Shown: one piece after another, positions 702 through 36,789 of the stretch | Layout: each line of letters begins with the position of its first letter | Position numbering within the stretch: the stretch's first letter is position 1 | Assembly: GCA_001508005.1 (NCBI GenBank) | Contig: LGEZ01000020.1 | Coordinates: forward strand, 1-36,789 | Source: Clostridia bacterium 41_269 | GTDB lineage: Bacteria > Bacillota > DTU086 | Length of the DNA: 36,789 nt | Direction of reading: 5' to 3' | Translations under genes and position numbers: made by a program | Notes under the pieces: generated by a model | Seen by the model: only the letters and a program-made list of their open reading frames with translations | Told to the model about the DNA's origin: nothing | The model's database searches: none

Positions 702-1780
702 GGCTCCTCCCCTTTAACTTTATTTGCAACTAAATCTCCCATTTCTCGAGTACCAACCAGTTTTAACCCTTCGCCCATCAGATCAGCAGTTCGGTATCCC
801 TCATCAAGAACTTCGGCAACTGCCCTTTCAACATCCCGGGCAGCCTCCTCCATATTGAAGGAGAACCTTAGCATCTGAGCGGCAGACAAAATTGTAGCCA
901 GAGGATTGGCAATATTTCTCCCTGCAATGTCAGGTGCTGAGCCGTGAGCCGGCTCATACATAGCCACTTTTCCACCTATGCTGGCAGAGGGAAGCATCCC
1001 TATGGAACCCGTAAGCATAGAAGCTTCATCGGTTAAAATGTCTCCAAACATGTTTTCCGTGACTATCACACTGAACTGTTTTGGGTTGCGGATAAGCTGC
1101 ATGGCACAGTTGTCCACATACATATGTTCCAGCTCAACATCAGGGTATTCTTCACTAATCCTGGTCATCACTTCCCTCCACAGCCTTGAGCTCTCCAGAA
1201 CATTGTGCTTATCAACGGATGTTACCTTCTTTACTGGGCTCTTTCTTGCCATTTCAAAGGCAAGGCGCCCAATACGCTCTATTTCCCAGCTTGAGTAAAC
1301 AAGGGTGTCCACAGCAATCTCCTGACCGTTTTTCTTTTCCCTTTTCTTTTCGCCAAAATACAGTCCCCCGGTGGCCTCCCTTATTACCAAAAAATGGGTT
1401 CCCTCAACAATTTCCCTTTTCAAAGGAGAGCTGTCCACCAGGCTGGGATACAGCTTCACAAACCTCAAATTTGCGTACAGGTCCAGCTCTTTACGAAGTT
1501 TTAGCAGGGAAGCAGCTTCGGGACGAAGATGAACAGGCAAATTGTCCCATTTAGGACCTCCCACTGCTCCCAAAAGTATGGCATCGCTGTCATGGCACAG
1601 TTTTAGGGTTTCATCGGGCAGGGGAACTCCCACAGCATCTATAGCAGCTCCCCCCACAAGTCCTTCTTCAAACTGAAAAGAAACTCCATATTTTTCTCCT
1701 ACCCTTTTGAGTACCTTTACAGCTTCGGGAATTATTTCCACTCCAATTCCATCCCCAGGCAGAACAGCAATTTTATACAT
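698..1780 (-). CDS. leuB: 3-isopropylmalate dehydrogenase
   Basis: NAD-dependent oxidative decarboxylation of 3-isopropylmalate, the third step of leucine synthesis; the enzyme probably also serves citramalate-derived methylmalate. The 360 residues match the usual bacterial LeuB length. The N-terminus is the typical [20 protein letters not shown]. Also visible are GAVGGPKWD, the substrate-binding Arg-rich stretch [18 protein letters not shown], the catalytic Tyr/Lys regions, and the NAD-binding [18 protein letters not shown] near the C-terminus. The start overlaps the leuD stop by 8 bases, and the TGA stop overlaps the cimA ATG, so leuD-leuB-cimA form a coupled block. Nothing is unusual about it. 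Confidence 0.97.
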
Positions 1781-2273
1781 TTTTCTTCATCCTCTCTGCC
1801 ACATACTGCATAAGCCCTCCGGCACTGATAATTTCCCTCATAAACTCAGGGAAGGGAGCTGCTCTATAGCTTTCTCCCCGAGTAAGGTTTATGATCAATC
1901 CCTCTTCGGCATTGACCCTTACCATATCTCCATCCTGAATCCTCTTCGAAGCCTCAGGGCTCTCAAAAATGGGAAGACCAATGTTTATACTGTTTCTGTA
2001 AAAGATGCGAGCAAAGGACTCTGCTATAACACAGGACACCCCCGCCCCTTTTATGGCAAGGGGAGCATGCTCCCGGGAGCTCCCGCAGCCGAAATTTTTC
2101 CCCGCTACAATGATGTCGCCGGGCTTAACCTTTTTGGGAAACTGAGGGTCCGCATCTTCCATGCAGTGCTTCGCCAGCTCCTTGGGATCAGAGGTGTTTA
2201 AATACCTTGCAGGGATGATGGCATCGGTATCAATGTCGTCTCCAAACTTAAAGGCTCTACCTTCAAATTCCAT
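1773..2273 (-). CDS. leuD: 3-isopropylmalate dehydratase small subunit
   Basis: Swivelling small subunit of isopropylmalate isomerase, which converts 2-isopropylmalate to 3-isopropylmalate together with LeuC. At 166 residues it is the short (archaeal/clostridial) LeuD form, paired here with the matching short LeuC. Motifs seen are [16 protein letters not shown] near the N-terminus, [21 protein letters not shown], and the region around [15 protein letters not shown]. The ATG follows the leuC TGA with no spacer, and its ribosome binding site (GAGGTGCGG) lies inside the end of leuC. Confidence 0.96.
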
Positions 2274-3536
2274 TCACCGCACCTCCTCGGGGCTGGCAAT
2301 GCGACCCAGAACGGCACTTGCCGCTGCCACAGCAGGATTGGAAAGATAAACTTCACTTTCGGGATGACCCATGCGCCCAACGAAATTCCGGTTGGTTGTG
2401 GCCACAGCTTTCTCTCCTTTGGCTAATATGCCCATATGTCCCCCCAAGCAGGGACCACAGGTGGGAGTGCTTACGGCACAGCCCGCTTCTATGAAAACTT
2501 CGATAAGTCCCTCCCTCAGAGCTTGAAGATATATTTCCTGGGTCCCCGGAATGATTATTACCCTAACCTCAGGATGCACCTTTCTGCCCCTAAGAATATC
2601 TGCTGCAGTTCTCAAATCCTCCATCCTGCCGTTGGTGCATGAACCGATTACCACCTGATCAATTTTTACATCCCCCACTTCACTGATGGGCTTTGTGTTT
2701 TCGGGCAGGTGGGGAAACGCCACCTGGGGTTCTATTTTGGAAGTATCATACTCATATATTTCTTCATATACCGCATCGGAGTCGCTTTCATAAACATGAA
2801 AACTTCTCTTAACCCGCCCCTTTACATATTCAAGGGTTTTCTCATCGGGTGCAATAATGCCGTTTTTCCCACCAGCTTCTATGGCCATATTGCACATAGA
2901 AAAACGGCTGTCCATACTTAATGAAGAAATGGTTTCTCCGGTAAATTCCATTGCCTTGTATCTTGCCCCGTCCACACCAATATCCCCGATGGTGTAAAGT
3001 ATGAGATCTTTACCGCTAACCCAGGGCTGCAGTTTTCCGTAAAATATAAATTTTAGGCTCGGGGGAACCTTAAGCCAGACTTTACCTGTGGCCATGGCTG
3101 CTGCCATATCCGTGCTTCCCACACCCGTTGAAAAAGCGCCCAGGGCTCCGTAAGTACAGGTATGGGAATCCGCACCAATAACCAGTTCCCCTGGTGCCAC
3201 CAGCCCCTTCTCCGGAAGGAGACAGTGTTCCACTCCCATTTCCCCAATCTCAAAATAATTTTTTATCCCATACTTTCGGGCAAATTCCCTTACTACTTTT
3301 ACCTGCTCAGCCGATGGAATATCCTTATTAGGGGTAAAATGGTCGGGAACCAGGGCAATCTTTTCCCTGTCAAAGACCTCATCAAGGCCCAGCTTCAAAA
3401 ACTCCTTTATGGCTACCGGAGCAGTAATATCATTACCCAAAACCATATCCACATCCGCTTCAATCAGCTGCCCCGGCTCCACAAAATCCAATCCAGCATG
3501 GCGGGCAAGTATTTTTTCCGTTATGGTCATGCCCAT
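2274..3536 (-). CDS. leuC: 3-isopropylmalate dehydratase large subunit
   Basis: Aconitase-superfamily large subunit carrying the 4Fe-4S cluster of isopropylmalate isomerase. About 420 residues is the short LeuC/HacA-like form. Cluster ligands appear in [13 protein letters not shown] and in [13 protein letters not shown]; the active-site region [20 protein letters not shown] is present. I place the start at the ATG of [17 protein letters not shown] because GAGGAGAG sits 8 bases upstream and this is the family's usual first residue. An in-frame GTG 18 bases earlier (position 3554) would place the ribosome binding site inside the gene. It is 44 bases downstream of leuA. Confidence 0.95.
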
Positions 3537-3580
3537 GGGCATCTCTCCTCTCACCTATACCGTAATTTTTTTGAATTAAA

Positions 3581-5116
3581 TTATACTCCGTTTTTTAAGA
3601 TTTCATCCCCTGCTTCATGCATAAGCCTGTTTATAGCACTTATATATGCCCTGGCACTTGCTTCCAGAATGTCGGTGCTTATTCCGCGGCCCATGTACAG
3701 CTTTCCGTTGTACTCCACCTTTACCGTTACTTCACCCACTGCATCTTTTCCACCGGTTACTGCGTTAAGGGAATAATGTGCCAGCTCCACATGAAACCCT
3801 GTCACCTTTTCAATGGCTTTGAAAACAGCATCCACAGGACCGTCGCCGCAGGCTGCATCTTCAATGACTTCTCCATCTACCCTGATACCTACAGCTGCAG
3901 TGGGAACGATGTTGCTTCCTGTATATACCTGAATCTTCTCAAGCTTATATTTTTCGGGAATAGCCCTGACTTCATGGTTGATAATGGCTTCAATGTCTTC
4001 ATCGGTAACCTTCTTTTTCCTATCTGCAAGCTCTTTGAAACGGTAGAATGCCTTGTTGATTTCTTCCTCAGTGAGTTCAAAGCCTAATTCCTCAAGACGC
4101 TTTTTAAAAGCGTGCCTACCAGAATGCTTGCCCAGCACAATCCCATCTGTTTTAATTCCTATGGTTTCAGGATTCATAATCTCATATGTGGTTCTTTCCT
4201 GGAGCACACCGTGCTGATGTATTCCTGATTCATGGGCAAAGGCATTCCTTCCCACAATGGCCTTATTGGGCTGCACAGGCATACCTGTCAGGGCACTGAC
4301 CAATCTGCTGGTGCGGTAAATCTCATTAAGCTTAATGCCTGTGGTGCAGCCGAAGTAATCCTTTCTGGTGGTAAGGGCCATGACCACTTCTTCCAGGGAA
4401 GTGTTGCCCGCCCTTTCGCCGATTCCATTAATGGTGCATTCCACCTGCTGGGCTCCAGCCTCCACGGCAGCGAGGCTGTTGGCAGTGGCCAGTCCCAAGT
4501 CATTATGGCAGTGGACGCTCAAAATGACCTTGTCAATGCCCTTCACTTTCTGCTTTATGCTGGCAATAAACTCACCAAACTCCATGGGAGTGGAATAACC
4601 CACCGTGTCAGGTACATTAATTATACCTGCTCCAGCTTCAATAGCCGCTTCAATTACTTCACAGAGGTAATCAAGGTCCGTGCGGAAGGCATCTTCCGCT
4701 GAAAATTCCACTTCTGCCCCAAAAGATGCAGCATAGCGCACCGCTTCTTCTGCTAGACGAAGAACTTCTTCCCTGGTCTTATTCAATTTGTATTTAAGAT
4801 GGATATCGGAAGTGGCTATGAAAGTGTGTATCCTCGGTTTTTCAGCATGTTTAAGTGCTTCCCATGCCCTGTCTATATCCTTTTTATTTGCCCTTGCCAG
4901 GGCAGCTATAACAGGGCCCTTTACCTCTTCAGCCACTGCCTTCACTGCTTCAAAATCGCCCTGGGATGAAATGGGAAAGCCCGCTTCGATAACATCTACT
5001 TTAAGTTTTGCCAGCTGACTGGCAATTTCCACTTTTTCCCTAACGTTTAAGTTGACTCCGGGAGACTGCTCCCCATCCCTGAGGGTAGTGTCAAAAATAT
5101 AGATCCTTTTTTCCAT
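3581..5116 (-). CDS. leuA: 2-isopropylmalate synthase
   Basis: Commits 2-oxoisovalerate plus acetyl-CoA to leucine. At 511 residues it is the standard bacterial type. The catalytic TIM barrel starts with [15 protein letters not shown] (residues 9-23). The metal ligands are in [15 protein letters not shown] (H202 and H204), followed by [19 protein letters not shown]. The linker contains [17 protein letters not shown], and the C-terminal leucine-sensing regulatory domain covers roughly residues 390-505 with [13 protein letters not shown]. Leucine feedback inhibition is therefore expected. The ATG has GAGGGGATTGTT upstream; the gene starts 25 bases after ilvN. Confidence 0.97.
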
Positions 5117-5141
5117 AACAATCCCCTCTTAATGAATAATT

Positions 5142-5648
5142 TTATTCAATCTCGTACTTGGGTCCCCTGAGCATAGCAACCTTTCCTGTACGCACAACCT
5201 CCAGAATTCCAAAGGGCTTCATGGAACTTTCAATGGCGTTGATCTTGCCTATGTCCCCAGTGGCTTCAATTATTAGGGTGTCCTTACCTATATCCACTAC
5301 CCTAGCCCTAAAAATGTCCACAATCTGCATTATTTCACCGCGCACAGAGGGCTCAGCCTTTACTTTTATCAATATAAGCTCCCGCTCCACATGTTCTTTT
5401 TTGGTTATATCGGAAACCTCAATAACCTCCACCAACTTCTCCAGCTGCTTGGTCACCTGCTCAATAACATATTCGTCTCCCTCAACCACTATGGTCATCC
5501 TGGAAACAGCTGGATTTTCCGTCCTTCCCACAGCCAGGCTGTCTATATTGTATCCCCGCCTTGCAAAAAGGCCAGCCACCCGGGTTAAAACCCCGGGGCG
5601 GTTTTCCACTAGAACCGAAAGGGTATGCTTGTTTTCCACAGGCCTCAC
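5142..5648 (-). CDS. ilvN: acetolactate synthase small (regulatory) subunit
   Basis: Regulatory subunit that gives acetolactate synthase valine sensitivity and full activity (IlvN, called IlvH in many Firmicutes). It has 168 residues, with an N-terminal ACT domain ([34 protein letters not shown], here residues 8-41, positions approximate) and a C-terminal ACT-like half containing [18 protein letters not shown]. The GTG start overlaps the TGA stop of ilvB in a GTGA arrangement, with GAGGGG just upstream in the ilvB tail, so the two subunits are translationally coupled. Confidence 0.96.
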
Positions 5649-7387
5649 CCCCTCAGCATCTTCTTGATGCTGCCTCCGGGCGGCACCATGGGGAATACAT
5701 TTTCTTCTCTTTCTACCCAGAAATCAATGAGTACGGGTTTTTTGGATTCAATGGCCTTTTTGAGTGCGGGGCGCACCTCTTCCTTCTTTTCAACCCTCAA
5801 TGCTTCCATGCCGTAAGCTTCCGCCAGCTTAACGAAGTCCGGTTGACAGCTGAGATCTGTCTGGGAATATCTTCCTCCATGGAAAATTTCCTGCCACTGG
5901 CGAACCATACCCAGATAACGATTGTTTATTAGTGCGATATTTATGGGCAGTTCATATTGAACCACCGTTGCCAGCTCCTGAATATTCATCTGAAGGCTAC
6001 CGTCGCCGGCAATGTCAAAAACTACGGCATCGGGATTAGCAACCTGAACTCCTATAGCTGCAGGAAGCCCAAAACCCATGGTTCCAAGGCCTCCTGAAGA
6101 AATAAAGGTTCTGGGCACCGCTGTTTTATACAGCTGAGCCGCCCACATCTGATGCTGTCCCACTTCAGTAGCTACAAAAGCCTTACCTCCCGTAAGTTCG
6201 CTTATCTGCTCTATAACATATTGGGGTTTGAGTTTTCCATTATCTTTGTATGTTAAGGGATACTGCTTTTTCCATTCCTCAATGGTTTTAAGCCATTGGG
6301 TATTTTTCTTTTCCTGAGTCAGTTCCAAAAGACGAACAAGAACTTCTTTGGCATCTCCTATAACAGGAAAATCCACCGCCACATTTTTGCCTATCTCTGC
6401 AGGATCAATGTCTATATGCACAATCCTTGCATTTTCTGCAAAGGTAGAAACATCCCCGGTAACCCTATCGGCAAAGCGCACTCCTATGCCGATTAAAAGG
6501 TCGCATTGGGAAACAGCATAATTGGCATACACTGTACCATGCATTCCCAGCATACCTAGGGAAAGGGGATGATTTTCTGGAAAGCAGGATTTCCCCATCA
6601 AAGTAGTGGTAACGGGAATATTGAGCTTTTCTGCAAAAGCTAAAAGTTCTTTTTCTGCTTTGGATTTCAGCACACCGCCACCGGCATAGATAACTGGCTT
6701 TTCGGACTGCATCACAGCTTCAGCAACACTACTTATGGTTCCATTTCCGCTCATTACCGGGAGTCTGTAGCCTGGAATTTCAACATCCACCCATGGATTA
6801 TATTCAGCTTCCTTCACTGTTATGTCTTTGGGCAGATCAATGAGCACTGGACCCGGTCTTCCGGTGCTTGCTATATAAAAAGCTTTTTTTAGGGTTGGAA
6901 CTATTTCTTTTACATCTTTAATGAGAAAATTGTGCTTTGTGATGGGCATGGTAATACCCGTAATATCCGCTTCCTGAAAAGAATCCCTACCAATAGCATT
7001 CACTGCTACCTGCCCTGTAATGGCAACCATGGGAACTGAATCCATATATGCATTGGCTATTCCCGTAACCAAGTTGGTAGCTCCAGGGCCTGAAGTAGCA
7101 ATACACACCCCCACCTTACCGGAACTTCTGGCATAGCCGTCCGCAGCATGAGCCGCTCCCTGTTCATGCCGAGTAAGTATGTGTCTGATTTTCTTACTGT
7201 GATAAAGGGCATCGTAAAGGGGCAGCACCGCACCACCTGGAAATCCGAAAATAACTTCCACACCCAGATCTTCTAGGGTTTTTATAACCAGTTCAGCCCC
7301 AGAAAACACTGTTCTGCTCTTCTCTGCCTTTTCCTTTATACTCCCAACCTGCATCACCTCCGACATTCTTTCTGATCTTACAGACAT
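5645..7387 (-). CDS. ilvB: acetolactate synthase large (catalytic) subunit
   Basis: Thiamine-diphosphate enzyme making 2-acetolactate (valine/leucine arm) or 2-aceto-2-hydroxybutyrate (isoleucine arm). It has 580 residues. The N-terminal TPP pyrimidine domain has [17 protein letters not shown] with the catalytic Glu in [17 protein letters not shown]. The C-terminal TPP pyrophosphate domain has the GDGS...NN motif in [19 protein letters not shown] and [20 protein letters not shown]. The start is the ATG at 7387, with AGAGGTGG 6 bases upstream; the first about 25 residues are a non-conserved extension. It lies 33 bases downstream of ilvD. Confidence 0.97.
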
Positions 7388-7420
7388 TCAGACCACCTCT
7401 TTTAATTTTTTAATCCTTAA

Positions 7421-9088
7421 TTACTCGTCAATCTGCAGCACCGCTCCAGTGCTTGCAGATGTTACCATCCGCGCGTATCTTGCTAAATAGCCGGTTTTAA
7501 TTTTGGGTTCCTGCGGCACCCAGTTCTTTCTTCTCTCCTCAAGCTCTTCCTGATCAACCAAAAGCTCCAGCTTCCTTCCTGGAATGTCAATGCTTATAAT
7601 ATCCCCTTCTTTAATCAGGGCTATGGGACCACCTTCTGCTGCCTCAGGGGATACATGTCCTATGGAAGCTCCCCGGGTTGCTCCTGAAAATCTTCCGTCT
7701 GTTATCAGGGCTACCGAACTATCCAGTCCCATTCCCACAACAGCGGCAGTGGGAGTAAGCATTTCCCTCATGCCGGGACCTCCTTTAGGACCTTCCCCCC
7801 TTATAACAATGACGTCCCCTTCTTTTATCTTCCCCGAAGTGATGGCCTCCACGGCTTCTTCCTCGGATTCAAATACCCGAGCTGGTCCCTTGTGAACCAT
7901 CATAGAAAGATCAACCGCCGCCTTCTTAACCACTGCCCCCTCAGGAGCTAGGTTTCCCTTTAATATGGCAAGGCCTCCATCACTGCTGTAGGGATTTTCA
8001 ACAGACCTTATTATTTCCTTATTTAAAGGCTCACAGTTTTCTACATTTTCCCTCAGGGTTTTCCCAGTAACTGTTACAGCATCCCCCTTAAGCATTCCGT
8101 GGGATAGAAGCTCCCACATAACACTGGGTATTCCTCCTGCTTCGTTTAGGTCCTGGATGTAATAATCTCCAGCTGGACTTAATTTGCACAGGTTAGGAGT
8201 TGAACGGCTTATATTATCAAATAAATCAAGACTTAATTCTACTCCCGCTTCCTTTGCCACGGCAGGAAGATGAAGAACCGTATTGGTGGACCCCCCAAGG
8301 GCCATATCCACTGCCACTGCATTATAGAAGGCGTCCTCAGTCATAATGTCCCTGGGTTTTATCTGACGGTTCAAAAGATCCATGATTCTACGTCCTGTCT
8401 CCTTGGCAAGCCTTATTCTGGCTGCATCCACGGCAGGTACTGTCCCGTTTCCCGGCAGCGCCATTCCCAGTGCTTCCGTAAGACAGTTCATGGTATTGGC
8501 CGTAAACATACCAGCGCAGGATCCACAGCCTGGACACGCAGCCCCTTCCATTTCCTTAAGCTCCTTTTCAGAAAGGCTGCCGTTCACAAAAGCCCCAACA
8601 GCTTCAAACATGGTACTCAGGCTAATATTCCTGCCCCTGTATCTTCCGGCCAGCATGGGCCCCCCGCTGACAAATATGGACGGTATATTAAGACGTGCCG
8701 CAGCCATTAGCATCCCAGGAACAACTTTGTCACAGTTAGGTATAAAAACCAACGCATCGAAGGCATGGGCCATGACCATTACTTCAATGGAGTCCGCAAT
8801 GAGCTCCCTGCTGGCAAGAGAATATTTCATGCCAATATGGTTCATAGCAATTCCATCACACACAGCTATGGTGGAAAACTCTACAGGAGTTCCCCCAGCC
8901 ATTCTTATACCTGCCTTCACGGCATCCGCAACTGTGTCAAGATGCACGTGTCCGGGAACTATCTCATTTTGGGAGTTAACCACACCTACAAGAGGCCTTT
9001 CCAGCTCGACATCCGTAAGCCCAAGGGCTTTAAGAAGTGATCTGTGGGGGGCTTTAGAGACCCCTTCTTTGATTCTCCTGCTTTCCAT
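7421..9088 (-). CDS. ilvD: dihydroxy-acid dehydratase
   Basis: Fe-S dehydratase producing 2-oxoisovalerate and 2-oxo-3-methylvalerate, shared by valine, leucine and isoleucine synthesis. About 555 residues is normal for IlvD. Cluster-ligand motifs are [16 protein letters not shown] and [19 protein letters not shown]. The C-terminus contains [20 protein letters not shown]. The start is taken at the ATG of [18 protein letters not shown] because TAGGAG sits 8 bases upstream; an in-frame GTG 9 bases earlier (9097) is possible but has worse spacing. It starts 11 bases after ilvE. Confidence 0.96.
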
Positions 9089-9099
9089 TGATACCACTC

Positions 9100-9984
9100 C
9101 TAATCCTCGTAAATTTTAGGACCGTCAACTTTGGTTAGTTCTCTAAAATCTTTTATGAGCAATTTGGTAATTTCCCCCGGCACTCCGCTGCCTATGGGAC
9201 GGCTGTCAACCTTTACCACCGGTATAATTTCTGCCGCTGTACCCGTCAGGAAACACTCATCAGCAGTATAGACCTCATAAAGGGTGAAAACCTTTTCCTC
9301 AACAGGAATACCCCTCTTAGCTGCCAGGTCCATAACTGTGTTGCGGGTAATTCCCTCTAAAATTCCCAGATAAGCCGGAGGAGTAATAAGGGTACCATTC
9401 TTAACAATAAAGATATTGTCTCCTGTGGCTTCAGCTACATATCCCTCACTGGTGAGCATTAGGGCTTCCAGAACCCCCCTCTGGCTTCCTTCAATTTTTG
9501 CCATTATGTTGTTCAGATAGTTCAATGATTTTATCTGAGGATTTAAAGCTTCCGGAATATTTCTCCTTGTGGAAACCGTTGCCACCTCAAGCCCCTTTTC
9601 ATAAAGCTCTTCAGGATAAAGCTGTATTCCCGCAGCTATACAGAAAACAGTGGGTTTCTCACATTTTTTGGGATCCAATCCGAGATCCCCTTTGCCCCTA
9701 GTTACCACAAGCCTGATGTATGCATCCCTAAGGTTGTTGCGCCTCAAGGTTTCCAAAACAACTTCCTGCATTTCTTCCTTAGTAAGGGGAATATCAAGCA
9801 TTATAGCCCTGGCACCAAAATAAAGCCTGTCCAAATGCTCTTTCAATTTAAATACTCGACCGTGATATGCCCTTATACCTTCAAATATGCCGTCGCCATA
9901 AAGAAGACCGTGATCAAAAACAGAAACCTTTGCCTCCTCTTCAGGAACAAACTCCCCATTTAGATAAACAATTAGCCCCAACAC
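9100..9984 (-). CDS. ilvE: branched-chain amino acid aminotransferase (class IV)
   Basis: PLP-dependent transaminase for the last step of Val/Leu/Ile synthesis and first gene of the operon. It has 294 residues, the usual length. Class IV fold features are [21 protein letters not shown] near residue 21, the Schiff-base Lys at about K152 in [35 protein letters not shown], and the C-terminal [23 protein letters not shown] lies just upstream. The start may be the GTG at 9984 or, with better spacing, the TTG at 9981 ([11 protein letters not shown], the usual family start). A D-amino acid aminotransferase is the alternative, but the operon settles it. Confidence 0.95.
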
Positions 9985-10024: not shown

Positions 10025-10069
10025 AAAAAACCTCTCTATCCCATAGAACATATGTTCAGGGACGAGAGG
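10025..10069 (-). terminator. T-box-controlled intrinsic terminator
   Basis: On the minus strand CCTCTCGTCCC (10059-10069) can pair with GGGATAGAGAGG (10031-10042), with a short bulge, followed by six T. Its 5' arm starts just after the T-box bulge sequence, as expected for mutually exclusive antiterminator and terminator folds. Confidence 0.88.
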
Positions 10070-10300
10070 TATCCCGCGGTACCACCCTGATTGCCGCCAG
10101 AGCAACCACTTTTTTGGGATAACGGCTTTTACCGACACCACCTACTGGCCCGCTTTAACAAGGCAGACGTTGGGCGGTGCAACTCCGGAGTGATCTTGTA
10201 TCCAGTATTATTACCGGTCTTCCACCTTAAACCCGGCTCTCTGGAATAAGGGACTGGATACAACATGTCTCCTTCATCATCTTTGACATATATATTTTTA
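10025..10300 (-). promoter_or_regulatory. T-box leader, isoleucine type (AUC specifier)
   Basis: Untranslated leader of the ilv-leu operon that senses uncharged tRNA. The conserved T-box AGGGTGGTACCGCGGGA lies at 10072-10088 on the minus strand. A terminator follows at 10025-10069. Stem I has a 9-bp helix (GTATCCAGT with ACTGGATAC) and the AGAGAG and GGTGGAA elements in its upper part. Below the helix, the 3' side of the internal loop reads AAG-ATC-A before CTCC, so I read the specifier as ATC at 10192-10194, predicting tRNA-Ile(GAU). Under isoleucine starvation the tRNA acceptor end would stabilise the antiterminator and open the whole operon. The specifier is my structural reading; the T-box itself is certain. 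Confidence 0.93.
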
Positions 10301-21205: not shown

Positions 21206-21227
21206 TTATGTTCGCTTATTTTTTATT

Positions 21228-21716
21228 TTAGGCAGGTTCTAGTTTGCTTTGTATCTTTCTGATAAGAAATGAGGTTGTGATTCCATATAAAGAATGAATT
21301 CCAAAAAGCCATAAAGCCGATTTGGCTTTTACAGGGCCTTGAATTGTTGGAGCTCTTCTGTTGCCCAAAGATGCAGTGAACATCCATATAATTAGACCAA
21401 AAACAAAACCTGCTGCCAAGTCATTAATTGTTTTTTGTTTTAGATTTTTTTCCTGTTCGGCTGAATTATAATCGCCCATAAGAAGCGCTAAAAGAGAACC
21501 AAAGATACCCCCTATAAGAAAATTGGCTATTGTACCGACAATGTAATTAACTGCTCCCTTTCTTTTTAGCAGGGCTTTTCCTAGGATAAAATCTGTAGCA
21601 ACAGTTATAAGATTGATTTTGGTTAGTTTTAGCTTGTTGGTAATCCAGTTTGAAAGTGTGAGCACTACTGAGCCTATTGCCCCGGCTATGAAACCTATTT
21701 GCAGGTTTTCACGCAT
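21228..21716 (-). CDS. small integral membrane protein of unknown function
   Basis: A 162-residue protein with about four hydrophobic segments: residues 7-25 (GFIAGAIGSVVLTLSNWITN), about 55-80 (NYIVGTIANFLIGGIFGSLL), about 100-118 (AAGFVFGLIIWMFTASLGN) and about 135-152. A basic, Gln/Lys-rich loop sits between the second and third. The pattern resembles small conserved Firmicute membrane proteins (YqhR/DUF-type), but I cannot name the family. No clear ribosome binding site beyond GGAGGAAT upstream of the ATG. It is opposite in direction to the amidase and lies just inside repeat copy B. Confidence 0.65.
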   Translation of the reverse strand: MRENLQIGFIAGAIGSVVLTLSNWITNKLKLTKINLITVATDFILGKALLKRKGAVNYIVGTIANFLIGGIFGSLLALLMGDYNSAEQEKNLKQKTINDLAAGFVFGLIIWMFTASLGNRRAPTIQGPVKAKSALWLFGIHSLYGITTSFLIRKIQSKLEPA

Positions 21717-25687: not shown

Positions 25688-25726
25688 CAAAAAAGATAAG
25701 CCACCTCCCCTAAAAGAAGAGGCAGC
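25688..25726 (-). terminator. terminator of the homocysteine operon
   Basis: On the minus strand GCTGCCTC (25719-25726) can pair with GAGGTGGC (25700-25707) including two wobble pairs, followed by TTATCTTTTTTG. Confidence 0.65.
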
Positions 25727-25734
25727 ATTAAAGA

Positions 25735-26484
25735 TCACAAGGATACCAGTTCTAAATCGCCCCACGCACCGAGATATTTGTCAAGGACAATAACAATTCC
25801 CAGTATCCCCGGGCTTTTACGGGCTAAGGCAAGAACTTTATTTATATCTTCTTTATTCTCAACGCGATTGCACATGGCTGTGGCATAGGCATCAGCCAGC
25901 ACCGCATCCCTGCATACAACCACCACAGCATCCGCAAGGCCGAAGCTCAAAGAATGCCCCACAGTACCGCTTGAAGTGCACACCCCCATTTTTCCTTGAG
26001 GGTCAAGACGAAGGCCCACCTTTTCTGAAAGAGGAGATTTTCCAGCAAAAACGGAGAGAGTAACTGGCTCATGGGAAAAAAGGAAAATATCCCCACCGTT
26101 TTCCACAATGAGTTTTCTGCATCCTACTTCTTTGAGAATCACTTCTCCCACATGCTGGGAAAACAGCCCCGCCACTGCAGCCATAGGCCCTACCTCTGCT
26201 GCTGCAGCAGCTTCGGCCATCTTCCGAACGCTTAGGGGAGCATTTTCTTTCACAGGATAAGGAACAAGGGATGAGGCAAACCCCTCATCCCCCATTATAT
26301 ATTCTTCCAATTCCCAACGCAGTTTCTTTGTCTCCTTTAAAGCCAGGTCCTCTACTTTTCCCTTATATTTATCATACGAATGTGCATCTAGGGCAATCCA
26401 CAGATCCGTTTCCTTTTCCTGCACCTCGAAATAAACTGCGCCATCCCATCCCATATACCGGCGGTAGGTCCTCTCCTGATACAA
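25735..26484 (-). CDS. UPF0280 (COG2122) protein, homocysteine biosynthesis accessory
   Basis: A 249-residue protein distantly related to ApbE-type flavin transferases. Family marks are MYQERTYRRYMGWDGAVYFE at the N-terminus, PMAAVAGLFSQHVGEVIL, VENGGDIFLFSHEPVTL, GVCTSSGTVGHSLSFGLADA and VLADAYATAMCNRV. COG2122 was shown genetically to be needed for homocysteine synthesis from aspartate semialdehyde and sulfide in methanogens; its chemistry is unclear. The start is the TTG at 26484, with TTTGGAGG 8 bases upstream; earlier in-frame codons overlap the NIL-ferredoxin gene without a better site. Last gene of the SAM-riboswitch operon. Confidence 0.88.
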   Translation of the reverse strand: MYQERTYRRYMGWDGAVYFEVQEKETDLWIALDAHSYDKYKGKVEDLALKETKKLRWELEEYIMGDEGFASSLVPYPVKENAPLSVRKMAEAAAAAEVGPMAAVAGLFSQHVGEVILKEVGCRKLIVENGGDIFLFSHEPVTLSVFAGKSPLSEKVGLRLDPQGKMGVCTSSGTVGHSLSFGLADAVVVVCRDAVLADAYATAMCNRVENKEDINKVLALARKSPGILGIVIVLDKYLGAWGDLELVSL

Positions 26485-26509
26485 AATACCAACCTCCAAA
26501 TTAAACCAA

Positions 26510-26929
26510 TTAAACCCTGCTATTGAAGGCAACATTTATAAGCTGAAGAGGGCAGGCACTGACGCACAGCTCGCAGGCAACGCATTTTTCTGGATCAAAG
26601 CTGAGCTTCCAGGTTTCCCTGTCAAGGCTCAGCGCCCCGGAAAAACAGACTGCTGTGCAGGCACCGCAGTGAACGCAGCGGTCCAGATCCACGAATATCT
26701 GTTGGCTCAAAGGTTTTAAAGTTACTCCCTGTTCCTCAAGAAACCGAATTCCCTTGTCTATGTTTTCCTCCTCGGCCTCCAGCTCTATTAAAAGTCTCCC
26801 TTCCTTTCCCGCAGTGATTACGCCTCTTAGGATATTTACCTTTAAATCATAATCCTTAACCAGATGATAAGTTAGGGGTTTGCCAGAAGTCTCCGGGGGA
26901 AACTCCAATATATAGCGTACCCTTTTCAT
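26510..26929 (-). CDS. NIL domain-ferredoxin (2[4Fe-4S]) for homocysteine biosynthesis
   Basis: A 139-residue protein. Residues 1-78 are a NIL domain (a small ferredoxin-fold module also found on MetN) with PLTYHLVKDYDLKVNILRGV. Residues 80-130 form a two-cluster ferredoxin: CVHCGACTAVC (C85, C88, C91, C95) and CVACELCVSACP (C116, C119, C122, C126). In methanogens the homologous NIL/Fer protein works with the COG1900 enzyme in making homocysteine, presumably supplying electrons or sulfur. The ATG follows the COG1900 stop by one base, so coupling is certain. Confidence 0.92.
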   Translation of the reverse strand: MKRVRYILEFPPETSGKPLTYHLVKDYDLKVNILRGVITAGKEGRLLIELEAEEENIDKGIRFLEEQGVTLKPLSQQIFVDLDRCVHCGACTAVCFSGALSLDRETWKLSFDPEKCVACELCVSACPLQLINVAFNSRV

Positions 26930-26930
26930 T

Positions 26931-28115
26931 TTACCCCTCCTCCCTGAATGTTAAAGGGTTCACTGTTTTATCCCTGGGCAGCGTTTCCACAGGAGGTGTT
27001 AAAAGAAACTGGCCTTGCTGTATCCATTCCTTAAGCTTCTGAGCAATTTCCCTGGCTTTATAAATGCTGGATAGGGGTGCTGTGGGAATTCTCCTGCCGT
27101 TTATCACTATTTCCCCCGACTTTAGTTCCTCATAGTTCACTTTGGCAATAACAGGTCTGCTGCGGCTCGGAACACCGTAGTCCAGTACCACCGTATATAT
27201 ATCCCTATCCCTAACTGAAGTGAACCTGACCATCTCTTCGTCCAAAATGGGTATGGGGATACCCACCCCCACAAACAGGGATACCCCGTACTTGTAGAAA
27301 ACTGCTGCCCTCAAAAATTCCGGGCTCATTTCTTTCAGATTGCCTATGAGGCTTAAGGTTCCCGCAGCACCAATGGGAACACCCAGCTCATTTCTTTCCA
27401 CCTTTGATTTGTGCTGGGTTCCATGCCAGGCTACATATCCCCTGGCTCCGCCCAAAAATATTGCCGTACCTATCCCTATAGTTCTGTATTCAGGATCGTT
27501 TAGAAGAGGGCTCAGCTGGCCTGAAGTGGAATAGGTTACGTTTCCAAACCTCGGCAGTAGGACCCCCATATAAGTGTAAAGGGTTCTGTCCGTGGAATTG
27601 GTTGCTGCAGCATAGTTCTGATAAGCATTTCTGGGATTAAAAAGTATAGCTTCGTTTATGGATTCTAAATCAATGTATCCTTCCACCTCTTTGTTGGGGT
27701 AGCAGTCCGTCCTCTTTCCATACGCCCTGAGATAAACCTTTTTACCCCTTACCAGTTCCTCAATGACATGGGCACCGCCGTATGTTTCACCGTTTCTTTC
27801 CGAAAGCTCCGTAGCCCCGAGATAAGCATCCACAGCTGCGATGCCGCCGTAGGCAGGTACATCATTAAGCCAAATCTTCGCCATTTTAATGGGGGGATCA
27901 CTGTGGCCAAAATTGAGAAATACCCCCGATGAACACATGGGACCAAAAGTTCCCGTGGTAACAACATCAACTTTTTTAGCAACTTCCTTAATGCCCTGCT
28001 CTTCCACCATAGGGATTATTTCCTCAGCGGTAACAACCACTGCTTCTCCCTTTTTAATACGCTCATTTATTTCTTCATAAGTCTTCTTAATACCCAACTT
28101 AAAACCCACCCCCAT
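26931..28115 (-). CDS. homocysteine biosynthesis protein (COG1900/DUF39), L-aspartate semialdehyde sulfurtransferase
   Basis: Converts aspartate semialdehyde to homocysteine using a sulfide-derived persulfide, bypassing O-acetylhomoserine. 394 residues, without the CBS pair that some homologues carry. Conserved cysteines are C61 in TFGPMCSSGVFLNFGHSDPP and C138 in YGKRTDCYPNKEV; their 77-residue separation equals that of the pair I recall as essential in the Methanosarcina enzyme. Other marks: GGAHVIEELVRGKKVYLRAYG, GTAIFLGGARGYVAWHGTQH and GLPRF-like LLPRFGNVTYSTSG. The start is uncertain: ATG at 28115 or the TTG 18 bases later (GIKKTYEEI), which has GGGGGTGGG upstream. It starts about 6 bases after the RAMP-like gene. 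Confidence 0.92.
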   Translation of the reverse strand: MGVGFKLGIKKTYEEINERIKKGEAVVVTAEEIIPMVEEQGIKEVAKKVDVVTTGTFGPMCSSGVFLNFGHSDPPIKMAKIWLNDVPAYGGIAAVDAYLGATELSERNGETYGGAHVIEELVRGKKVYLRAYGKRTDCYPNKEVEGYIDLESINEAILFNPRNAYQNYAAATNSTDRTLYTYMGVLLPRFGNVTYSTSGQLSPLLNDPEYRTIGIGTAIFLGGARGYVAWHGTQHKSKVERNELGVPIGAAGTLSLIGNLKEMSPEFLRAAVFYKYGVSLFVGVGIPIPILDEEMVRFTSVRDRDIYTVVLDYGVPSRSRPVIAKVNYEELKSGEIVINGRRIPTAPLSSIYKAREIAQKLKEWIQQGQFLLTPPVETLPRDKTVNPLTFREEG

Positions 28116-28121
28116 ATAGAT

Positions 28122-28988
28122 TTAGACCAGATACCAGATGCCGTTGTGCCCTATTCTGAATTCAGCACTGTTCCCATGGGGATAAATAAGTGTCCCGGGA
28201 ACCCAGTACGCTTCCTCCTGACCGAAATGTACATGTCCCCCTAAATGGTCCACCCGTCCCCTGATGGGCTCCTTCACTCCGTAGATGTTTACAATCTTCC
28301 CTTCTGCGTTGTCAATGAATGCATGGGACAAAAGGGAAGAGGGAACCTCGTAACTTATAATCACCTCGTCTCTTTCGAGAAGAAATCTTATTCCATCTAT
28401 GGAAAATAGAAAATCTTCTCCTTTGGCAGAACCAACTTCCCTAAGCTCTTCCAAAACTATTCTGCCCAATCCGTAATTAATTTCCTCTCCTACCCAAAGC
28501 TGCTTTAAAGCAAGGAGCCAGCTTCTAAAACCTTCCATTTCTGCCCCATTCTTTACGAACACATACCCCACAAGATAATTGTCATTCCCCTTAACTCCGT
28601 CTTTGGGCATAAGAAACTCTGATTCCGAAAGGTTTCGGGGCAGACCGTACTGCATTCCAGCTTTTGAAGATACAAACCGGCCTGAAAAATCCAGCAGAGA
28701 CAAACCCTTTTTCCCGTAGAGAAGGGTGCCCTCAGGGGTAAGTCTGGGGTAAAAAGCATTTACGCCGTCATCGGAAAGGAAAAAGGTGCTGAATTTAAAA
28801 AACTCATCTAAGCGGCGCATATGCCCCGTGGAAGCGCTGCTGTTCCTGGACAGAGAAGCCGCAAAGGCACCCATCATATTGATGGGCGGTATGTAATATC
28901 TGGTTCTTTCAAAGCCCATAGAATCGTTATACCCCACAATAATGGGCGTTTTTATTTTAAAGCTCAGATAATACCCTTTATAAGACAA
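28122..28988 (-). CDS. RAMP-superfamily-like protein, first gene of the SAM-riboswitch operon
   Basis: A 288-residue protein that looks like a CRISPR RAMP (Cas5/Cas7/Cmr/Csm) fold. The first strand is YYLSFKIKTPIIVGYNDSMG. RTRYYIPPINMMGAFAASLS (residues 28-47) matches the 'IPGSSLKGALR' type motif. GEEINYGLGRIVLEEL (167-182) matches the glycine-rich RAMP loop, and YWVPGTLIYP lies near the end. I cannot assign it to a named subtype, and no Cas10 is nearby. Start: the TTG at 28988 has GGAGG 7 bases upstream (MSYKGYYLSFK); a TTG 48 bases earlier has no good site. It stands between the riboswitch and the COG1900 gene, spaced by about 6 bases, so it is cotranscribed with homocysteine synthesis. Its role there is unknown. 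Confidence 0.62.
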   Translation of the reverse strand: MSYKGYYLSFKIKTPIIVGYNDSMGFERTRYYIPPINMMGAFAASLSRNSSASTGHMRRLDEFFKFSTFFLSDDGVNAFYPRLTPEGTLLYGKKGLSLLDFSGRFVSSKAGMQYGLPRNLSESEFLMPKDGVKGNDNYLVGYVFVKNGAEMEGFRSWLLALKQLWVGEEINYGLGRIVLEELREVGSAKGEDFLFSIDGIRFLLERDEVIISYEVPSSLLSHAFIDNAEGKIVNIYGVKEPIRGRVDHLGGHVHFGQEEAYWVPGTLIYPHGNSAEFRIGHNGIWYLV

Positions 28989-29057
28989 TTTTTTTCCTCC
29001 AAAAAGAATTTTTATTTTATTTCTCCAAAAGTCCAAAATAAACTTCTAAATTCAATG

Positions 29058-29087
29058 AAAAACCCCTTCTGGAAATCAGAAGAGGTT
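29058..29087 (-). terminator. riboswitch-controlled terminator
   Basis: AACCTCTTCTG and CAGAAGGGGTT (one wobble-type bulge) around ATTTC, followed by TTTTTC on the minus strand. Its 5' arm CCTCTT is complementary to AAGAGG in the 3' side of riboswitch P1, the expected antiterminator pairing. Confidence 0.9.
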
Positions 29088-29100
29088 TAAATACAATCCT

Positions 29101-29209
29101 CCTCTTATCTCCCAGAATTACTTCTGCAGGATTTGGCACCTTCTAGCCTCTAAGGGCTAGGGTTGCCGGGCTTCACAGGGCCAGTCCCTCCGCCTCTCTT
29201 GATAAGAGG
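29101..29209 (-). promoter_or_regulatory. SAM-I (S-box) riboswitch
   Basis: On the minus strand the aptamer has a 9-bp P1 (CCTCTTATC with GATAAGAGG), the AGAGAGGCGGAGGGACTGGCCC core, the GAAGCCCGGCAACC element, a P3 arm (CTAGCC with GGCTAG), AAGGTGCCAAATCCTGCAG, and GGGAGATAAGAGG closing. These are the conserved S-box core elements in the right order. High SAM should stabilise the downstream terminator and shut off the RAMP-like/COG1900/NIL-ferredoxin/UPF0280 operon, in keeping with feedback on methionine synthesis. Confidence 0.97.
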
Positions 29210-29237: not shown

Positions 29238-29267
29238 AGTCTACATTACCATTCCTCAAACAGTCAA
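29238..29267 (-). promoter_or_regulatory. probable promoter of the riboswitch operon
   Basis: TTGACT (29262-29267) and TAGACT (29238-29243) with 18 bases between them, ending about 28 bases before the aptamer. The -10 is imperfect; the rest of 29270-29438 holds nothing I can name. Confidence 0.5.
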
Positions 29268-29465: not shown

Positions 29466-30353
29466 CTAGTTTGTGACCATGTTATCCTCCTCTTCTTCTT
29501 CCATAAGGGCAAAATATGGAGCAAATTCCGCAATAAGCCTGCTTCTATCCACATTTCCCTCTGTGCAGCCCAACCATTCCCTGAACTTTTCATATACACT
29601 GCGGAGCTGATTGGCAACGGTCTGTTCACTTTTATAAAGCTCCGCTGCAATGGCAGCATTGCCCAACCCCCGGCAGACTAAATATACCACTTCTCTTTCT
29701 GCCTGTGTAAGCCAGTGCTCAATGAACTCCTTTTTTCTTTTCATTTGGCTGGCTCGATTCAACTTTTCATACCAGTGGGCAACTTTGTTTGGGTCATCAA
29801 GCTCCGATACTGTCTCCATCAGTATCTTACCTTCACTCCAGCGAAGCACGGGTATGGGTACAAGCCAAACCCTCTCGCCAGAGGATAAATGAAGGCACCG
29901 TTCTGAACCAGGCTGCCAGCCCTCAGTAATCAAGTGCCAAACTTTATCATCAGGACCAAAAAGAAGCTGGGCAACCACCATGCCCATAATTCCCATAACT
30001 TTGCGGCCGCCGGATATGCAGAAATGCACAGTGCCTTTCTTTCTTAAGCGACGCACTTCACGGTAAAGGGTGCCCATAAGCCCCCGGATATCCCTTTCAC
30101 TGCAAAAATCCTTAACTATCCCTTTGTCTGAAACCACAGGAACGCACCTGAGCTCAATCCCCTTATAAAAGCTTTCCCTTTCAAATTCCTTTTGAACAAC
30201 GGAAAGGGCATCCAGCACCCTTTTTGTATCCGTATAAATAACCACCACTTCATCTATTTTCTCCCCATCTTTAAGCAGGTGATCTAAAGTTATGGTCACA
30301 ACCTGCGGTTCCACCCCTAAAGTAGCAATTAAAGAGCAGTGAGTGCCGGCCAA
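29466..30353 (-). CDS. CARF-type (Cas_NE0113/Csx14-like) sensor fused to LuxR-type HTH
   Basis: A 295-residue two-domain protein. Residues 1-170 follow the Cas_NE0113/CARF-like plan: LIATLGVEPQVVTITLDHLL at the start (nucleotide-binding loop after strand 1), VVVIYTDTKRV, and HFCISGGRKVMGIMGMVVAQ (GGRK motif, residues 115-118) with GPDDKVWHLIT. Such domains bind, and in ring nucleases cleave, cyclic oligoadenylates made by type III CRISPR systems. Residues 215-262 (LTQAEREVVYLVCRGLGNAA plus a TVANQLRSVYEKFREWLG recognition helix) are a LuxR/GerE HTH. I infer a transcription factor controlled by a CRISPR second messenger. The tail is very acidic. Start TTG at 30353 with AGAGGTG upstream. Confidence 0.8.
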   Translation of the reverse strand: MAGTHCSLIATLGVEPQVVTITLDHLLKDGEKIDEVVVIYTDTKRVLDALSVVQKEFERESFYKGIELRCVPVVSDKGIVKDFCSERDIRGLMGTLYREVRRLRKKGTVHFCISGGRKVMGIMGMVVAQLLFGPDDKVWHLITEGWQPGSERCLHLSSGERVWLVPIPVLRWSEGKILMETVSELDDPNKVAHWYEKLNRASQMKRKKEFIEHWLTQAEREVVYLVCRGLGNAAIAAELYKSEQTVANQLRSVYEKFREWLGCTEGNVDRSRLIAEFAPYFALMEEEEEDNMVTN

Positions 30354-32165: not shown

Positions 32166-32552
32166 TTAGTCGTACCGCTTTTCCCTTGCCCTTTCCCTAA
32201 CTTCTTGAAGGTTCACAACTTCCGCAACCTCAAACTCCGGGGGAATACTCCCTTCCTTTTGACGCAGGCGCACCACAGGAGGAAAGTAGCCGCACCTTCC
32301 GTGCAGTTCCGCTAATAACACAGCAGTTATTATATTTAATGAAGGAGGGTTAATAAGAATGGGAAGAGACTGCCACTCTTTTGCTGTAAGACCTACCCTG
32401 TCTGCTATATCCACCACCTGCTGAACGATGGGCTTTTGGGGATCAATTTGCGTTTTTATCTCAACAACCCGACTTATTTCCCTTCCGGTTATCTGCTCCA
32501 GCTGTTTTTGATGAGCTTCAGTTAAAGGATGAGAAAAATTAAGCACTATCAA
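32166..32552 (-). CDS. Csx15-like CRISPR-associated protein
   Basis: A 128-residue protein. The start MIVLNFSHPLTEAHQKQLEQ, the centre LTAKEWQSLPILINPPSLNI, then AVLLAELHGRCGYFPPVVRL and VAEVVNLQEVRERAREKR near the end, match the Csx15 family as I remember it; these are CARF-like proteins linked to type III CRISPR and regarded as cyclic-oligoadenylate binding or degrading (ring nuclease) proteins. The start is the TTG at 32552 with AGGAGG 8 bases upstream; in-frame codons up to 32591 belong to the leader. It is first in a possible Csx15-GGDEF-CARF/HTH run. The reaction is not provable from sequence. Confidence 0.78.
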   Translation of the reverse strand: MIVLNFSHPLTEAHQKQLEQITGREISRVVEIKTQIDPQKPIVQQVVDIADRVGLTAKEWQSLPILINPPSLNIITAVLLAELHGRCGYFPPVVRLRQKEGSIPPEFEVAEVVNLQEVRERAREKRYD

Positions 32553-32961
32553 AATCACAGCCTCCTGCATTGAAAAAATAAAATACAGCACTAAAAAGGC
32601 ACTTTCAATATAAAATAATATCCATAATTAACTTTTCATACCATATCCATTAGTTACCCATATTATTAGTAGTTTTTTACTATAAATAATTATTTTCGAA
32701 AATAAGAAAACAACTGACGCTCCTTTTCAAAAATTTTTACCATTTTTCAATTTTTGACATACTCTCTGCAATTCCTGTCCCTATTACAAAATTAACCTGG
32801 TATATAACATATATAATCTGGCCAAGCTTTTTGCAAAGTCTCTACCAGCAAAATCGCCGCTTTGATTTCCAATCAAATTTTAATTAAAAAATATATTGAT
32901 TGAACAGTTTATTCTTACTTGAGAGGAACAAGCGTTTAATAAGAATCAAGGAGTGAAATAA
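32553..32961. other. divergent intergenic region, AT-rich
   Basis: About 400 bases between the Csx15-like gene (minus) and the EEP-family gene (plus). It must hold both promoters; a TTGACA at about 32753 has no good -10 at normal spacing. No gene or RNA motif seen. Confidence 0.5.
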
Positions 32962-34570: not shown

Positions 34571-36789
34571 GTTTCAATTCCTCATAGGTAGGCTGAAAAC
34601 CCGGAGGAAATGATAGGATAGCTAAGTTGATTGTTAAGTTTCAATTCCTCATAGGTAGGCTGAAAACGTTTTATAACAGCACCTTTTAGATTATTTTGCT
34701 GCTGTTTCAATTCCTCATAGGTAGGCTGAAAACTTCAGTACCTCAACAAGATGATTTGCCGGGGGTTAGGTTTCAATTCCTCATAGGTAGGCTGAAAACG
34801 GCGCTCGGACTGGATGAGAAGACCGAGAAGGACGAGTTTCAATTCCTCATAGGTAGGCTGAAAACGTGCTCAACGAAGCCGGCGCAGAAGGGCACGTCTA
34901 CTGTTTCAATTCCTCATAGGTAGGCTGAAAACGAGGCGGTTCTGGAAGCCGGCGGGAGGTCCATCACCTGTTTCAATTCCTCATAGGTAGGCTGAAAACC
35001 TGACCCCGGGACAGTTCCATAGTCGTGTCCCTTGCGGTTTCAATTCCTCATAGGTAGGCTGAAAACGGTTGGGGGCATCACCTTTACTTTCGTATGAACA
35101 ACGGTTTCAATTCCTCATAGGTAGGCTGAAAACTATATGTCACATGCGTTCCCTTGTAGTGCATTATTAGTTTCAATTCCTCATAGGTAGGCTGAAAACT
35201 AGAGACTAACGGAGGACGCAGAATCTGGCTGGAATGGGGTTTCAATTCCTCATAGGTAGGCTGAAAACCTGCAGATTTGATTTTCAGTCATTGAAAAAGA
35301 AAGGGTTTCAATTCCTCATAGGTAGGCTGAAAACACACGGGAATAAAAGCCGCGCGGAAGCCGAGGCTGTGTTTCAATTCCTCATAGGTAGGCTGAAAAC
35401 TCAGCAGCAACACCATTATTCATCAGCTTATAGAAAGTTTCAATTCCTCATAGGTAGGCTGAAAACAATTTAATAATGAAATAAGAAATGGTCAAACTGC
35501 TGGTTTCAATTCCTCATAGGTAGGCTGAAAACCTTCAAAGCATCAGGGCAATTGAAAACTTTGAACCGTTTCAATTCCTCATAGGTAGGCTGAAAACTAA
35601 AAAATACAGTCATAGGAAAGATGCTTTGAATGGTTTCAATTCCTCATAGGTAGGCTGAAAACCCCACGTCCGCTGCGGTCATGCCGCTGGCCTCGAAGTG
35701 TTTCAATTCCTCATAGGTAGGCTGAAAACGATAGCCCGAAGTGAAGGGAAATAAGCAGATCCGTCGTTTCAATTCCTCATAGGTAGGCTGAAAACTGTCT
35801 TAAAGCGGACGTCCATGCCTGCGGTTTTAACGTTTCAATTCCTCATAGGTAGGCTGAAAACGGGCTCTTCACAAACGATATTTACCCTTGTAGGCTCGTT
35901 TCAATTCCTCATAGGTAGGCTGAAAACTACACGGCATCAATTGCAGTAGCAGCACTGATAACTGGTTTCAATTCCTCATAGGTAGGCTGAAAACTAAAAA
36001 TTCTTCTCGTAAGCTCATTCTATCAACTCCAGTTTCAATTCCTCATAGGTAGGCTGAAAACCCCTTACCCTCTCATCCCTAGAGGATACCCAAGTTTGTT
36101 TCAATTCCTCATAGGTAGGCTGAAAACTTTCAATGCGAGTATCGGCATCCTTGGTTTTTGGGGGTTTCAATTCCTCATAGGTAGGCTGAAAACAAATCCG
36201 CCGGTCCGCTTCCGCAATATCCCCATTCAGTTTCAATTCCTCATAGGTAGGCTGAAAACAGGTTGAAGCCTTTAATGTGATTGGCTACCCTGGCACGTTT
36301 CAATTCCTCATAGGTAGGCTGAAAACACGTCCAGGCTTTACAGACTACACAGGAAGTCTAGTTTCAATTCCTCATAGGTAGGCTGAAAACGAAAGCAAAC
36401 GTCCTGATGATCCTTCAGAATATGGTGTTTCAATTCCTCATAGGTAGGCTGAAAACGTAACATACGGCGCGTCATTTGCAGGGAAGAATGATGTTTCAAT
36501 TCCTCATAGGTAGGCTGAAAACATTGCGGCAGACTTTCAGATTAAAACCGGTGTTCTGGGTTTCAATTCCTCATAGGTAGGCTGAAAACGGCCGTCGCCT
36601 GGGTTGCTGGCGCGTCTGCTGGCGGTTTCAATTCCTCATAGGTAGGCTGAAAACGGAAACAGCCCAGAAACTGCTTGACGACGTACTGGCCCGTTTCAAT
36701 TCCTCATAGGTAGGCTGAAAACGAAAGGGTCCTCTCTATTTATGAAAAACTGCTGGAAGGTTTCAATTCCTCATAGGTAGGCTGAAAAC
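34571..36789 (-). CRISPR. CRISPR array: 34 identical 30-bp repeats, 33 spacers
   Basis: Each repeat on the plus strand begins GTTTCAATTCCTCATAGGTA and ends GGCTGAAAAC, and I find all 34 identical; spacers are 34-39 bases. The last repeat ends exactly at the window edge, so the array may continue. Direction is inferred: read on the minus strand the repeat ends in ATTGAAAC, the crRNA 5' handle common to clostridial type I-B and III systems, and the degenerate repeat is at the left. Leader and new spacers should therefore lie to the right, outside the window. No cas1, cas2, cas6 or effector gene is present here; the nearby Csx15-like and CARF-HTH genes point to a type III system elsewhere. Confidence 0.98.

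Follow-up and report, generated by a model that had tools for sequence, protein, structure and literature searches.

What does a single RAMP protein, built on a fold that binds crRNA in CRISPR effectors, do at the head of a homocysteine operon behind a SAM riboswitch? The question is raised by a window of 36,789 nucleotides, which makes up the whole of contig 29 of the 1.67 Mb draft genome (G000; completeness 95.5%) of Clostridia bacterium 41_269; this genome was searched family by family. A sequence-only reading of the window had offered three answers: a protein recruited into sulfur metabolism, a CRISPR subunit placed under the control of SAM, or a wrong fold call. From the evidence set out below we consider it likely that the gene is an exapted (domesticated) type III-C RAMP, which serves homocysteine synthesis as an accessory repressed by SAM.

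Operon layout and predicted control by SAM

The operon places the RAMP gene between a SAM-I riboswitch and the genes for HcyBio, a NIL-domain ferredoxin subunit and a UPF0280 family protein (Table 1). The joint presence of HcyBio and NIL-ferredoxin (PF01837 and PF09383/Fer4) marks it as a homocysteine (L-ASST) operon. The aptamer scores 96.1 bits against a gathering score of 44.4, which bears out the earlier call of a SAM-I riboswitch heading the operon. It is the sole SAM riboswitch detected in G000, and the leaders of the orthologous operons in two other Clostridia MAGs, G001 and G003 (JAAYIF010000026 and JAAYRB010000065), score 98.1 and 89.1 bits, respectively.

Table 1. Features of the RAMP operon, in window coordinates.
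Feature	Position	Strand	Evidence
Sigma-A-like promoter, TTGACT-18-TAGACT	29238..29267	-	Consensus scan; directly 5' of the riboswitch
SAM-I riboswitch aptamer (RF00162)	29102..29208	-	96.1 bits, E 3.8e-22
Predicted expression platform: terminator hairpin (about 29058-29088) and competing antiterminator	29058..29106	-	Folds and duplexes in three leaders
RAMP gene, type III-C Cmr3-related (Cas5 group)	28122..28988	-	288 aa, TTG start; PADLOC Cmr3, fold search, orthologues
HcyBio/COG1900 homocysteine biosynthesis enzyme	26931..28097	-	PF01837, E 9e-159; conserved TTG start
NIL domain with two 4Fe-4S motifs, ferredoxin subunit	26510..26929	-	PF09383, E 1.8e-16; Fer4
UPF0280 family protein (ApbE-like)	25735..26535	-	NF003323/PRK04334, E 2.5e-75, slightly below the curated cut-off
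Intrinsic terminator closing the operon	25700..25726	-	12-pair stem, T-rich tail

The best supported start of the RAMP gene is the TTG at 28988, which follows a GGAGG and gives the 288-residue protein that had been described before. The orthologues in G001 and G003 begin at the equivalent position, the GGAGG recurs in G001, and a longer reading frame of 304 aa carries 16 additional N-terminal residues that are not conserved. The HcyBio frame is readable from 28115 as well; its conserved start is the TTG at 28097, preceded by its own ribosome-binding site (GGGGGTGGG). The gap of 6 bases previously assigned to the two genes depends on an unconserved upstream ATG and has to be corrected: the distance from the RAMP stop to the conserved HcyBio start is 24 nt in G000 and G001 and 27 nt in G003. 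The proposal that both genes share one terminator agrees with the terminator scan of the window, in which no minus-strand terminator-like site was found between them and one follows the last gene.

Promoter-like consensus matches are no commoner in the window than in shuffles, and the element ahead of the riboswitch recurs in all three leaders (TTGACT/TAGACT in G001 and TTGACT/TAAACT in G003). Behind the aptamer, folding predicts mutually exclusive antiterminator and terminator structures in each of the three leaders. The antiterminator pairs the 3' strand of P1 (29098-29106) with positions 29078-29085, and its duplex energy is -12.6, -12.5 and -13.3 kcal/mol across the leaders. We infer from these sequences that the riboswitch acts on the operon as one transcript. 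At low SAM, the 3' strand of P1 would be free to form the antiterminator, and RAMP, HcyBio, NIL-ferredoxin and UPF0280 would be co-transcribed; at high SAM, P1 would close, the terminator would form and the whole operon would be turned off. Since transcription would thus be confined to low SAM, the RAMP protein is predicted to accumulate, alongside the enzyme, only when the cell needs homocysteine.

Other regulatory leaders were seen at separate loci. A T-box leader (10055-10286, minus strand; 112 bits) precedes a branched-chain amino acid biosynthesis cluster (about 700-9984) in the window. On contig 51 of G001, a complete I-B and III-B locus lies close to a metX-like gene (homoserine O-acetyltransferase, by reading), and a second SAM riboswitch (21220-21331) is situated ~1.4 kb beyond the metX-like gene on the same strand.

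A RAMP protein of the type III-C Cmr3 family

The product of the first gene belongs to the RAMP superfamily, within the Cas5/Cmr3 group and its III-C branch. The PADLOC Cmr3 model PDLC00979 matches residues 18-302 of the 304-aa frame over model positions 2-283 of 287 (E 9e-36), and a second PADLOC Cmr3 model matches at E 2e-32. An AlphaFold model built from 22 sequences reached a pLDDT of 79 and a pTM of 0.82; modelling of the operon RAMPs by themselves, with three rows, reached a pLDDT of only 39, so the fold model leans on the III-C rows of the alignment. With this homologue-aided model, the RAMP fold was recovered in Foldseek searches, where the best PDB matches were all CRISPR RAMPs at a probability of 1.00, led by a RAMP of a type VII complex (E 2e-6) and including type VII, III-D Cas7-Cas5-Cas11, Csm, Csm3 and Cmr chains. 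The glycine-rich loop GxxxxxGxG is present as well, its residues G167, G173 and G175 being invariant in the 22 sequences. That the protein is not a RAMP at all could be argued from the lack of any matching model in Pfam, NCBIfam and PHROG and from a negative PDB search with the single sequence. Yet the homology to III-C Cmr3 was recovered from both sides, and on the PADLOC profile and the fold search this reading is rejected as extremely improbable; the RAMP fold proposed from the sequence has held.

When the three operon RAMPs were used as queries against 399 genomes of the phylum, strong matches (E < 1e-160) were confined to the three operon RAMPs themselves, and the next-best matches appeared at about 1e-20. 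These weaker homologues (E 1e-20 to 1e-4) occupy 19 loci in 18 further genomes. All 19 adjoin other III-C subunits, namely a Cmr5-like and mostly also a Cmr4-like protein; the full six-gene operon is found at 17 of them, and the remaining two are interrupted by contig ends. In the reference III-C operon the large subunit is Cas10c/Csx11, by which subtype III-C is recognized. A scan of plasmids gave two distant cyanobacterial homologues, and the one examined of these, on an Anabaena plasmid, also sits in a Csx11 operon; a scan of viral contigs found no RAMP homologue. The nearest relatives outside the class are Cmr3 subunits of the rare type III-C systems.

In the tree, the operon RAMPs of the three genomes group together on a long stem with a support of 100/100, and with III-B Cmr3 as the outgroup they are joined to the III-C sequences at 100/99. 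Because the III-C sequences without the operon RAMPs were monophyletic in only 12% of bootstrap trees, the tree tentatively suggests, given its long branches, that the operon RAMPs arose from within III-C.

Conservation of the arrangement

The RAMP orthologue is 78% identical in G001, of the same genus, and 44% identical in G003, of the same family. In both genomes a SAM riboswitch lies ahead of the gene and the same three genes lie behind it, so that the adjacency to COG1900, a survey of which had been proposed, is kept in both. Among the four genomes examined of the GTDB class, three carry the RAMP gene, each with the riboswitch and the operon, and these three species, which belong to a small lineage of uncultured anaerobic bacteria, are all draft MAGs, two of them in one genus; neither the RAMP gene nor HcyBio was found in the fourth, G002. 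A wider scan of genome contigs added only the same two relatives. The proposal of recruitment into sulfur metabolism gains from this constant association in all three gene-bearing genomes. The opposing suggestion, that homologues are always found in cas operons and the gene stands here by chance, is rejected: three conserved loci rule out a chance neighbourhood of the RAMP and homocysteine genes.

A SAM riboswitch lies close 5' of HcyBio in 13 of 19 loci from G000 and its relatives and in 10 of the 16 outside the RAMP-carrying family, and at none of these 16 does a RAMP gene stand between the two. A riboswitch directly before HcyBio is thus the common state in the sampled Clostridia, and the RAMP gene is a later addition. 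In the scenario that we favour, a Cmr3-type III-C subunit would have been inserted between the SAM riboswitch and HcyBio of a pre-existing operon in the family ancestor, and would then have been retained as an operon member after the III-C effector was gone.

Relation to CRISPR systems

A different possibility is that the protein, under SAM control, still works as a CRISPR subunit in the Cas5 position, joining in trans a type III effector encoded elsewhere in the genome and perhaps coupling immunity to the supply of SAM. The RAMP core is retained, the stretch 0.3-5.5 kb upstream holds a CRISPR array, a CARF-HTH gene and Csx15, and type III loci are present in G001 and G003, all of which would fit. 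Against this, the protein belongs with III-C Cmr3, and a search that detected two positive controls found no III-C Cas10 (Csx11/Cas10c) in the four genomes of the class. A functional III-C subunit would be encoded with Cas10c/Csx11 and Cmr4/5, and the operon RAMP is not. G001 has a complete III-B locus, in which the six cmr genes are all present and a canonical Cmr3 is among them, and the III-A locus of G003 has its own Csm4; this also rules out that the protein fills a gap in a split III-B or III-A system. In G000 no other RAMP (PF03787), no Cas1 and, above the cut-off, no Cas10 was found; contigs 29 and 17 each end in a CRISPR array, so the assembly may lack a cas locus. The G003 operon, on a contig of 6.8 kb, has no CRISPR genes near it and adjoins glycine-cleavage genes (by our own reading of the translations), so that a link to the upstream block of CARF-HTH, Csx15 and CRISPR array is not needed to explain the operon. 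We conclude that the operon RAMP is probably not a CRISPR subunit, and the idea of a working subunit under SAM control, as the sequence-only reading had also envisaged, appears very improbable.

The upstream block has features of its own. The gene at 29466-30353 (minus strand) encodes a CARF-domain protein with a C-terminal LuxR-type HTH (Csx14/NE0113-like; PADLOC CARF3, E 3e-125), likely a cyclic-oligonucleotide-responsive transcription factor; it is conserved in G001 without adjoining cas effector genes, and a terminator-like hairpin lies between it and the SAM operon. Csx15, a CRISPR accessory protein (32166-32591, minus strand; NF040560, E 1.7e-51), and a GGDEF protein neighbour the CARF gene in an order that G001 shares. 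The CRISPR array (34571-36789, plus strand) runs off the contig end, and an array of the same repeat, with some repeats carrying two fixed changes, ends contig 17 of G000 (53653-56590).

Selection and residue changes

Between G000 and G001, dN/dS is 0.148 for the RAMP gene, 0.039 for HcyBio, 0.064 for NIL-ferredoxin and 0.124 for UPF0280; the RAMP gene is under purifying selection that is looser than that on the catalytic subunits. Its faster evolution relative to HcyBio, together with the loss of several residues conserved in III-C, is what might be expected of a passenger that came to lie behind the riboswitch accidentally and is now decaying without function. However, its dN/dS is far below 1 and similar to that of UPF0280 in the same operon. 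The three species, between which identity falls as low as 44%, all have an intact reading frame and keep its start, its ribosome-binding site and its distance from HcyBio, and we regard a decaying remnant as improbable.

The operon RAMPs share with III-C Cmr3 the residues P15, G19, TR29-30, Y32, G40-A41, E124, G141, G167, G173, G175 and G265. They have changed at H17 (conserved in 18 of 19 III-C sequences), W39 (17/19), A115 (17/19), E233 (18/19) and G168, where the Gly of all 19 III-C Cmr3 is replaced by Glu; a functional III-C subunit would be expected to keep these five residues, all of which are replaced here. Several acidic and aromatic residues are invariant solely in the operon form. 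The computed pI of the three operon RAMPs is 6.2, 6.5 and 5.0, whereas it exceeds 6.5 in 15 of the 19 III-C Cmr3. These changes suggest altered ligand contacts compatible with retained RNA binding, and the lost III-C residues and acidic pI count mildly against an unchanged crRNA-binding role. As the RAMP core is kept while III-C Cmr3 residues have changed, we think that the protein may be a non-catalytic accessory of the homocysteine pathway.

What such an accessory does is divided between two nearly equal options. Slightly short of an even chance is that it may be an RNA-binding factor tuning the expression of sulfur genes or the fate of RNA; scarcely behind is that it may be a partner of HcyBio/NIL-ferredoxin, with the small remainder left to something else. 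In its full form, the proposal that a single CRISPR-derived RAMP has turned into a putative RNA-binding regulator of sulfur amino acid metabolism, with its synthesis limited to times of SAM scarcity, is a tentative one. The variant of domestication in which the RAMP fold no longer binds RNA and instead acts within a HcyBio/NIL-ferredoxin complex, as scaffold or as regulatory subunit, would account for the acidic pI, the loss of H17, W39, A115 and G168, the acidic and aromatic residues peculiar to the operon form, and the close linkage with the enzyme gene that each of the three genomes shows. The TRxY motif and the GxG loop are nevertheless retained, and a pI below 6.5 also occurs in 4 of the 19 III-C Cmr3 and in the III-B Cmr3 of G001 (5.5); this variant, too, is possible but doubtful.

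Comparison with known systems

The closest metabolic counterparts are the SAM-I HcyBio operons of other Clostridia, which have the same riboswitch and the same order of HcyBio, NIL-ferredoxin and UPF0280; the operon described here differs by one extra gene, the RAMP gene, between riboswitch and HcyBio. In methanogens, COG1900 and NIL-ferredoxin subunits (MA1821-22) turn aspartate semialdehyde into homocysteine, according to the parts of the source consulted (PMC12068725), and the same pair is found here. As far as those parts go, the methanogen L-aspartate semialdehyde sulfurtransferase is thought to be feedback-regulated by methionine/SAM through NIL and CBS domains, the CBS domain being carried by COG1900, and no RAMP is described with it (PMC12068725). 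In the window, a Pfam search of the COG1900 subunit matched only HcyBio and no CBS domain, and control by SAM would instead be exerted by the riboswitch.

With III-C Cmr3, the operon RAMP has in common the sequence family PDLC00979, the fold, the TRxY motif and the GxG glycine loop. III-C Cmr3 is part of an effector with Cas10c/Csx11, Cmr1, Cmr4, Cmr5 and Cmr6, whereas the operon RAMP has no adjoining cas effector gene, stands under a SAM riboswitch at a fixed position beside HcyBio, and has lost H17, G168 and other residues. Known reuse of Cas proteins mostly concerns defence, mobile elements and multi-subunit RNA-guided control. Among exapted Cas proteins, the haloarchaeal RAMP (HRAMP) system and the Myxococcus dev operon are similar to the present case in that RAMP or Cas proteins occur outside standard CRISPR immunity, but they retain more than one Cas subunit (Cas5 with Cas7, or Cas5-7-8), whereas here a lone RAMP is found in a biosynthetic operon (PMC8730458). 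In the literature searched, no earlier account was found of a RAMP that belongs to a biosynthetic operon, stands under a SAM riboswitch or is linked to COG1900, and within that scope a lone CRISPR-derived RAMP in a homocysteine operon is a previously unreported kind of reuse. If the proposed domestication is correct, a crRNA-binding fold can enter primary metabolism as a single RAMP in a biosynthetic operon governed by a metabolite riboswitch, and the operon offers a small system in which to study how a RAMP acts outside a CRISPR complex.
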